Shown: positions 63,168 to 64,000 of the stretch, piece by piece
How positions within the stretch are numbered: position 1 is the stretch's first letter
How the letters are laid out: each line of letters begins with the position of its first letter
NCBI GenBank assembly: GCA_903938445.1
Contig: CAJADG010000071.1
Span: 1-64,000 of the forward strand
Origin: an uncultured Bacteroidota bacterium
GTDB taxonomy: Bacteria > Bacteroidota > Bacteroidia > Chitinophagales > Chitinophagaceae
Length of the DNA stretch: 64,000 nucleotides
Direction of reading: 5' to 3'
Notes under the pieces: generated by a model
Databases searched by the model: none
Told to the model about the DNA's origin: nothing
The model's input: the letters and a program-made list of their open reading frames with translations, nothing else
Made by a program: the position numbers and the translations under genes

Positions 63168-63713
63168 ATGAAAAAGATTTTTGGGTTCATCCTCCTTGCG
63201 ATGGTAAGTAGCACAGTTGCAATTGCACAAGTTCCAGCACAAAAAATTTGGGAAACCAAAACGGCACAGGTTCGTTTTATTGCAGTAGACGATAAAGATA
63301 TTGATGCGCTCAATAAAGAAGCCGTAAGTCGCTTAGAACCTAATGGTAAGTTGAGTTTCACTATGTTAATGAAAGGTTTTCATTTTGACATGGGTAAAAT
63401 GGAAGAGCATTTTAATGAAGAATATGTAGAGAGTAATAAATTTCCACGTGCCTTTTTTAACGGTCAAATTACCAATATCAAAGCTGTAGATTTTAAAAAG
63501 GATGGCAAATATCCAGTAGCCATTATGGGTACTATGCAGGTACACGGTGTTAATAAAGCCATTCAAGCAAATGGAACTGTGGAAGTAAAAAATGGAATTA
63601 TCTCCGCTAATTCAAAGTTTACCGTTACTTTAAAAGACTTTGGCATTGGCGGAATTTTAATTAAAATGGTTGCAGATAAAATAAATGTGGAAGTAAACGC
63701 TAGCTATCAATAA
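63168..63713 (+). CDS. YceI-family exported protein
   Basis: This 181-residue protein has a signal peptide (MKKIFGFILLAMVSSTVAIAQ) and a lipocalin-like YceI beta barrel: WETKTAQVRFIA, LSFTMLMKGFHFDMGKMEEHF, SNKFPRAFFNGQITN, IMGTMQVHGVNKAI and KFTVTLKDFGIG. YceI proteins bind polyisoprenoid or similar lipids in the periplasm. The length is typical. It is probably transcribed on its own, between recR and metH. Confidence 0.92.
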   Translation: MKKIFGFILLAMVSSTVAIAQVPAQKIWETKTAQVRFIAVDDKDIDALNKEAVSRLEPNGKLSFTMLMKGFHFDMGKMEEHFNEEYVESNKFPRAFFNGQITNIKAVDFKKDGKYPVAIMGTMQVHGVNKAIQANGTVEVKNGIISANSKFTVTLKDFGIGGILIKMVADKINVEVNASYQ

Positions 63714-63760
63714 ACAAACTATTGATTCCCTTTTAATTTGGCTACAAGCTAATAGTATCC

Positions 63761-63768
63761 TAATTTTG
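63761..63768 (+). promoter_or_regulatory. -7 box TAATTTTG of the metH promoter
   Basis: An exact TAnnTTTG match followed by C puts the transcript start near 63774, right at the 5' end of the structured leader. Confidence 0.6.
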
Positions 63769-63774
63769 CCACGC

Positions 63775-63908
63775 ATTGCAGGTGGATTTGTTTATTGTTC
63801 AACCTGCCCATCCGTGAGGAAAAATGGAACTAATAAACGATTCCTATATCGATCCCCAAATTATTAGTTGTTTTTAGCTCCTGTTGGATGTTGCATAAAA
63901 AAAAATTT
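63775..63908 (+). promoter_or_regulatory. Structured metH leader with predicted H-type pseudoknot, riboswitch candidate
   Basis: Stem P1 is GCAGGT (63778-63783) with ACCTGC (63802-63807). Its 18-base loop contains GTTTATTGTTC (63790-63800), which is complementary to GAAC-T-AATAAAC (63827-63838), 11 pairs with one bulged base, forming an H-type pseudoknot. Between them lies a hairpin CCATCC-GTGA-GGA..TGG with a GNRA loop (63808-63827). CTAATAA (63830-63836) can instead pair with TTATTAG (63861-63867) around an inner CGAT/ATCG hairpin, followed by TTGTTTTTAG, a terminator-like alternative. Position before metH suggests control by SAM, SAH, B12 or folate. The motif is not one of the riboswitch consensus patterns I know (SAM-I, SAM-II, SAH, cobalamin, THF). 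Confidence 0.5.
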
Positions 63909-64000
63909 ATGTCAATACAAGAGACGCTTAAAAAAAGAATTTTAGTGATTGATGGTGCCATGGGTACCATGATTCAGCGCCATAAACTTACCGAGGAAGA
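63909..64000 (+). CDS. metH: Methionine synthase, 3'-truncated by the window edge
   Basis: Only the first 30 codons are in the window: MSIQETLKKRILVIDGAMGT and then MIQRHKLTEE. The ILVIDGAMGTMIQ motif is the start of the homocysteine-binding barrel of cobalamin-dependent MetH, which methylates homocysteine from methyltetrahydrofolate. In Bacteroidota the gene may encode a full-length MetH or a shorter homocysteine methyltransferase module; this cannot be told here. The start follows an unusually structured leader. Confidence 0.85.
   Translation, partial: MSIQETLKKRILVIDGAMGTMIQRHKLTEE

Follow-up and report, generated by a model that had tools for sequence, protein, structure and literature searches.

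A pseudoknot in the metH leader of Chitinophagaceae, probably a lineage-specific variant of the SAM-II riboswitch group

The metH gene at the 3′ end of the window (the whole 64,000-nucleotide (nt) stretch analyzed here, from an uncultured Bacteroidota bacterium of the family Chitinophagaceae) is preceded by a leader that appears to be structured, which raises the question of whether this leader is a riboswitch, what it senses and in which direction it acts on metH. A sequence-only reading had described two mutually exclusive structures in the layout of a riboswitch, possibly of a lineage-specific class, could not match it to SAM-II among other consensus patterns, left the direction of control unclear, and proposed a search of Rfam and a test of covariation in related metH leaders. 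Judged by the comparison of sequences described here, the element is most likely a lineage-specific variant of the SAM-II group that senses S-adenosylmethionine (SAM) and lowers MetH, a reading to which we assign a probability of about 0.6.

The start of metH is likely the ATG at 63909, a second in-frame ATG being located at 63888, and the open reading frame after this first half contains Pterin_bind, two B12-binding domains and Met_synt_B12 (Pfam). MetH of the window's genome is split into two adjoining genes of 344 and 907 amino acids (G000:C71:63888-67719; L002:389-4220), and in two loci of another family of the order, f12 (L129 and L131), the element is located 5′ of the gene for the second MetH half. 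Upstream, the −7 box TAATTTTG, whose position had been read correctly, is separated from the first stem (P1) by a gap of 9 nt, and the metH transcript would start at approximately 63773-63776. Of 169 distinct regions upstream of the element, 144 contained an exact TAnnTTTG box, compared with 4.35 expected from mono-shuffles, and in 138 of these it ended 2-10 nt 5′ of the start of the covariance model, which is 2 nt 5′ of P1. This near-constant spacing bears out the earlier view that the structured leader begins at the likely transcript start.

Table 1. Positions of the promoter, the leader element and metH within the window.
Feature	Position	Strand	Basis
Promoter, which we take to be of the Bacteroidota type: TTTG 63737-63740 and −7 box TAATTTTG 63761-63768	63737..63768	+	sequence
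P1 stem, 63778-63783/63802-63807, 6 bp	63778..63807	+	92.8% of cells paired; double changes in 6/6 pairs
L1, GGAUUU, predicted to lie as a third strand in the major groove of P2	63784..63789	+	GAUUU in 96/96 distinct rows of alignment A3
P2 pseudoknot helix, 63790-63800 with 63827-63830 and 63832-63838, 11 bp, bulged U63831	63790..63838	+	99.4% of cells paired
L3 with optional hairpin P3, 63811-63813/63818-63820	63808..63826	+	shuffle folding
Anti-P2 strand, alternative partner of 63828-63836, 9 bp, replaces P2	63861..63869	+	duplex energies
metH, first gene of split methionine synthase, homocysteine S-methyltransferase half	63909..64000, continues past the window to G000:C71:64922	+	Pfam S-methyl_trans 3.3e-100

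Just 3′ of the TAnnTTTG box, the leader contains an H-type pseudoknot (63778-63838), in which GTTTATTGTTC (63790-63800) pairs with GAAC-U-AATAAAC (63827-63838); the 11 bp with one bulge of the sequence-only reading are correct. The triple-helix role suggested for L1 is modeled on SAM-V, as described in PMC6061858. L3 was at least 14 nt long in 100 of 168 sequences and shorter in 68, and in 58 of the 100 longer ones at most 5 of 100 shuffles folded equally well; P3 is optional across the element copies. The mean z for P3, inflated by shuffles lacking variance, was disregarded. Because folding of the window sequence alone was just mildly unusual (z = −2.13), the support for the structure is comparative. 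In the 96 distinct rows of A3, standard pairs accounted for 97.1% of cells (91.8% when shuffled), 79 cells showed double changes (18.3 when shuffled) and 8 pairs were changed on both sides (3.8 in shuffles). None of 500 shuffles reached the pairing or double-change values of A3, and slid versions were at most 46.6% paired.

The covariation sought in related metH leaders was thus found throughout P1 (Table 1), and P2 was almost always paired, two of its 11 pairs showing double changes; the other nine say little, because they hardly vary. The pair 63791:63837 was U-A in 154 and C-G in 5 of the 159 counted cores, with A-U in one locus outside that count (L220), and 63800:63827 was C-G in 145, U-A in 8 and unpaired in 6. 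These counts cover the 159 of 163 distinct cores that fit the counting pattern, L220 being among the four rows left out, and since the bulged T was a requirement of that pattern, which also restricted two positions, the invariance of letters there is taken from two separate tallies, including that of the 163 cores, which revealed wrong anchoring of L131 and L132 in the other. The C-G loci at 63791:63837 read by eye (L126, L129, L131, L132 and L134) all belong to f12, and the P2 double changes, confined to few lineages, represent few events. On this comparative evidence, the metH-leader pseudoknot is real, far beyond chance. An alternative that takes the same letters as DNA is an operator, in which the inverted repeat GTTTATTGTTC / GAACTAATAAAC is bound by a regulator just 3′ of the promoter. 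Arms of P2 that are long and nearly invariant agree with this, but their spacing is highly variable (matches of 45 to 108 nt), P1 covaries, the bulged T, an asymmetric feature, is conserved together with GATTT and an alternative partner of P2 recurs downstream (see below), making the operator very improbable.

A BLAST search of 60 genomes, including the window's own, yielded at least 30 loci, the 30 listed all being from the window's genus and each having the element 5′ of metH. When covariance model R1, built from these 30 loci, was used to search 298 genomes, the element was found at E ≤ 0.002 in 75 of 85 Chitinophagaceae genomes and, beyond the family, in 4 genomes of f16 and 5 of f12, two further families of the order, in accordance with the lineage specificity suggested earlier; the copy in the f12 genome G090 (E = 0.016) is, judged by its sequence, also real. 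The genera with the element include Sediminibacterium, Ferruginibacter, Terrimonas, Flavihumibacter, Niabella and Puia, from which the family is taken to be Chitinophagaceae, and the window's genome has one copy (R1, E up to 1). The best R1 matches were taken as 90 loci, with metH downstream in 81 by script and also in L050, L129, L131 and L134 by eye; the gene downstream of the element in L132 was unclear. Four matches (L135-L138) were left out of the counts as chance, being without the core and not 5′ of metH. A pattern scan of the named genomes gave 80 loci among the matches listed, 76 of them with a match to covariance model R2, and of these 76 (again among the matches listed) 70 were 5′ of metH, 5 were ended by the locus edge and 1 was elsewhere (L187); the remaining four (L185, L194, L207 and L243), without an R2 match, were set aside as chance. 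Among 325 genomes of the class, some of the same order, R2 matched 7 Chitinophagaceae genomes, and three weak matches outside the order, none 5′ of metH, were rejected. Pooling of the overlapping locus sets gave 192 element sequences, among which 163 cores were distinct.

The element is therefore linked to metH at every readable locus except L187, L132 aside. The copy in L187, the sole readable one not at metH, is located 5′ of a Na+/H+ antiporter gene (L187:5656-7001, minus strand; Pfam Na_H_antiport_1). A further observation on these leaders is the short repeat GTTGYGTCRCWCWCTT, present in 14 of the 90 (e.g., L057, L112 and L121), which looks like a dispersed repeat family, with 56 copies in G221, 43 in G235, 42 in G283, 6 in G299 and none in the window's genome.

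To which known class this element is related was approached by model searches and by matching of positions. The proposed Rfam search returned no relevant match among 4227 models, at gathering thresholds or at E up to 10, in the window and 12 related loci, and neither RF00521 (SAM-II, SAM_alpha) nor RF01726 (SAM-II long loops) matched there. There was also no RF01726 match in the window's genome or, over the cut-off, among the Chitinophagaceae (f1) genomes searched, and no RF00521 match in the order among 247 phylum genomes; the lack of RF01826 (SAM-V) matches in 247 genomes says little, as the control gave none either. Conversely, R2 applied to 39 SAM-II loci gave four matches (E 0.5-4.7), none of which lay on a riboswitch in the sense orientation. 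A loose pattern for the SAM-II core recovered 7 of 16 RF00521, 29 of 30 RF01726 and 76 of 90 element loci, and occurred at 7 places in the window, compared with a mean of 4.1 and a maximum of 9 in 40 shuffled windows, so that it proves nothing alone. Since R2 misses SAM-II loci and the pattern is unspecific, the relation to SAM-II rests on matched positions and not on a score. In the literature searched, which included few subscription papers and comprised, among others, passages of PMC2258182, PMC2704228, PMC2864571, PMC11508383 and PMC4239095, no description of the element was found.

In SAM-V, according to PMC6061858, it is the bulged U47 with which the adenine of the ligand pairs; the sulfonium is opposite the U20:A48.U9 triple, and the aminoacyl end is contacted by A50, whose replacement by inosine severely reduced binding. 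SAM-II binds its ligand very similarly, with A47 as the aminoacyl contact. In the element, U63831 corresponds to U47, U63796:A63832 to U20:A48, U63795:A63833 to U19:A49 and U63787-U63789 to U8-U10, and the likeness to SAM-V extends to the four P2 pairs below the bulged U, the positions of the U:A.U triple and the P3 hairpin between P1 and P2. CUAAU, including the bulged U, was present in 163 of 163 distinct cores and the U-A pairs 23:106 and 24:105 in 96 of 96 A3 rows, so the letters of the predicted triple are in place. In contrast, the aminoacyl-contact A was U in all 163 cores, A50:A18 of SAM-V being replaced by U:A in a longer P2: U63834, at the place of A50, can pair with A63794, leaving P2 uninterrupted there. 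All ligand-contact nucleotides but one are thus at matching places, and the earlier view that the leader cannot be matched to SAM-II is not supported.

RF00521 SAM-II shares with the element GAUUUG (in most loci), UUG and the C-U-AA core; unlike the element, its P2 is split into parts and CUAA is followed by A in 12 of 12 script-readable loci (of 16), where the element has U. The likeness to the SAM-II long loops (Weinberg et al. 2010, PMC2864571) comprises the occurrence in Bacteroidota, the 5′ position by a TTTG box, an H-type pseudoknot with optional loop hairpins, a RAUUUG third strand, AUUG, C-U-AA and the bulged U, and in our own test an anti-P2 strand was found downstream in 14 of 27 RF01726 loci, as in the element. 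However, the RF01726 loci read by eye precede metK whereas the element precedes metH, and their P2 is mostly AUUGC/GCUAA with a separate CUG/CAG helix, compared with the single 11-bp helix GUUUAUUGUUC/GAAC-U-AAUAAAC of the element. RF01726 is common elsewhere in the class, exceeding its cut-off in 40 of the 296 genomes searched from the phylum, none of them Chitinophagaceae. Because it fails the Rfam cut-offs and differs in one contact nucleotide, we consider the element a variant of the SAM-II/SAM-V architecture and not a member. The aminoacyl-contact base, read by eye in the six metK-linked loci of f23 to which this tally is limited (L142 was misplaced and L340 was a chance locus), was A in 2, U in 3 and C in 1, and two of the three loci over the RF01726 cut-off had U. 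This variation at metK indicates that the base at the A47 place can change within SAM metabolism. Four f23 loci (L334, L337, L338 and L339), with U or C for the SAM-contacting A and an apparent extra hairpin inside L1, are possibly specificity variants in their own right.

Genomes without the element bear on the ligand as well. The ten such Chitinophagaceae genomes (of 85) all keep metH, and in all three genomes searched of genus g25 (G070, G251 and G277; L331, L332 and L333) a SAM-I riboswitch (RF00162), whose fold is unrelated to the element, is located directly 5′ of metH. This shows that metH can come under SAM control in the family and favors SAM as the ligand. In the other seven, neither an Rfam match nor, by eye, an element was seen 5′ of metH. 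SAM-I was present in 48 of 60 Chitinophagaceae genomes, mostly 5′ of genes other than metH, and was not found in the window's genome; 20 of its places, read by eye, preceded genes of the metB, metY, metX, cysH and homoserine dehydrogenase types and metH once, with no recognized methionine gene at two (L310 and L313).

With SAM-I in so many genomes of the family, a further sensor of SAM at metH would call for an explanation, and this coexistence, together with the changed contact base, leaves room for another ligand. The same fold could bind S-adenosylhomocysteine (SAH), methylthioadenosine or another adenosyl compound in a pocket altered at its amino-acid end, as the invariant U at the aminoacyl contact, the presence of SAM-I mostly at other genes, from which metH may differ in the signal it follows, and the control of metH by SAH riboswitches in some Proteobacteria (PMC4239095) would suggest. 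Nevertheless, SAM-I takes the same metH position in three genomes, the metK-linked f23 SAM-II long-loop elements vary at the same base, and the letters of the U:A.U triple, which favor charged SAM over SAH, are retained, so that a non-SAM ligand seems unlikely. A related proposal, tentative and rather unlikely, is a distinct metH-specific class of Chitinophagales, in which the amino-acid end of a SAM-II scaffold has been rebuilt (A to U, continuous P2) for a non-SAM metabolite and which coexists with SAM-I in many genomes. A leader that binds a protein, for instance in autoregulation by MetH with P2 and its downstream competitor as alternatives, would agree with the single-gene link in all but one readable locus and with the nearly invariant letters of loop and helix; it is improbable, given that the core matches a metabolite pocket, that a metabolite riboswitch is in the element's place in one genus and that MetH is retained in genomes lacking the element.

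The SAM-II-group reading is favored by the covariation of P1, the nearly constant pairing of P2, the position at the likely transcript start and the link to metH, by core letters that coincide with the SAM-binding letters of SAM-V and SAM-II, and by RF01726 loci sharing position, core and often anti-P2, with SAM-I in its stead in g25. It is weakened by the replacement of the aminoacyl-contact A by U with P2 closed there, by the failure of R2 to link it with SAM-II, and by the 7 of 10 element-less genomes that have neither switch. From this balance we infer SAM as the most likely ligand.

The second of the two exclusive structures is also conserved. The perfect pairing of CTAATAA (63830-63836) with TTATTAG (63861-63867) in the sequence-only reading is correct and extends to 9 bp, and the minimum free energy structure of the isolated 3′ part of the leader includes the pairing of 63828-63836 with 63861-63869. 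In 152 distinct leaders with at least 45 nt, the best duplex between the P2 3′ strand and the downstream sequence averaged −8.0 kcal/mol, compared with −4.5 kcal/mol when shuffled, and was matched by at most 5 of 100 shuffles in 87. In 105 of the 152, the partner strand began between +16 and +43 downstream of P2 and its duplex was at least as stable as −6.5 kcal/mol, which supports the proposed riboswitch layout, and in L100 a changed letter in the P2 3′ strand is matched by a compensating change in anti-P2.

How this alternative would act on metH is less clear. The terminator-like hairpin proposed earlier is weak: no terminator-like site, by the criterion of a GC stem followed by a U tract, was found in 63650-64000, a loosely terminator-like site was present anywhere in the leader in 11 of 68 long leaders, and of the 105 leaders whose anti-P2 strand lies at +16 to +43, 29 have at least 5 T in the 8 nt that follow, indicating that the P2/anti-P2 alternative hairpin is no typical terminator. 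SAM-V acts as a translational OFF switch through P2-linked pairing at the ribosome-binding region. Among 82 loci of the element with a located start, 68 have leaders of at least 45 nt, and in the other 14 the P2 3′ strand ends at the metH start codon (five loci) or no more than 13 nt before it, leaving no space for anti-P2. In these short leaders P2 should hide the initiation region, and we infer from this that its folding lowers translation (ligand-OFF). Regarding the direction of control, left unclear earlier, the short leaders thus argue for repression, and modeled access to the start codon showed no clear difference. In two-state folding it was 0.465 with the aptamer folded and 0.509 with it free in the 14 short leaders, and 0.455 and 0.472, respectively, in the 68 long ones, among which access on folding decreased by more than 0.1 in 10 and increased in 3. 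Support was weak for a downstream partner that the anti-P2 strand could take up once freed (at most 5 of 100 shuffles equal in 13 of 50). For the long leaders, no output mechanism emerged from the terminator, start-access and downstream-partner tests. Since C is frequent (29.7%) and G scarce (12.6%) in the 30 nt 3′ of P2, Rho-dependent termination was considered as a candidate output.

Under the SAM-II-group reading, P1 would form first and its loop would then pair with the downstream strand to give P2. AUUU of L1 in the P2 major groove, together with U63831 and U63795/U63796:A63833/A63832, may form an adenosyl-sulfonium pocket, most likely for SAM, the downstream product of the pathway, and P2 would be stabilized by binding. 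In leaders whose start codon comes immediately after this helix, its ligand-bound form should block metH translation; in long leaders, including that of the window, the ligand would keep the P2 3′ strand from anti-P2 and maintain a low-expression state.

With this element the cell can probably adjust how much methionine it makes, and the element would account for metH control across much of Chitinophagaceae. It may also serve as a natural test of a SAM-II pocket without its amino-acid contact, in which either SAM binding persists by other means or the specificity has shifted, and, together with g25, it would provide a case of unrelated SAM riboswitches occupying the same regulatory slot in close relatives.
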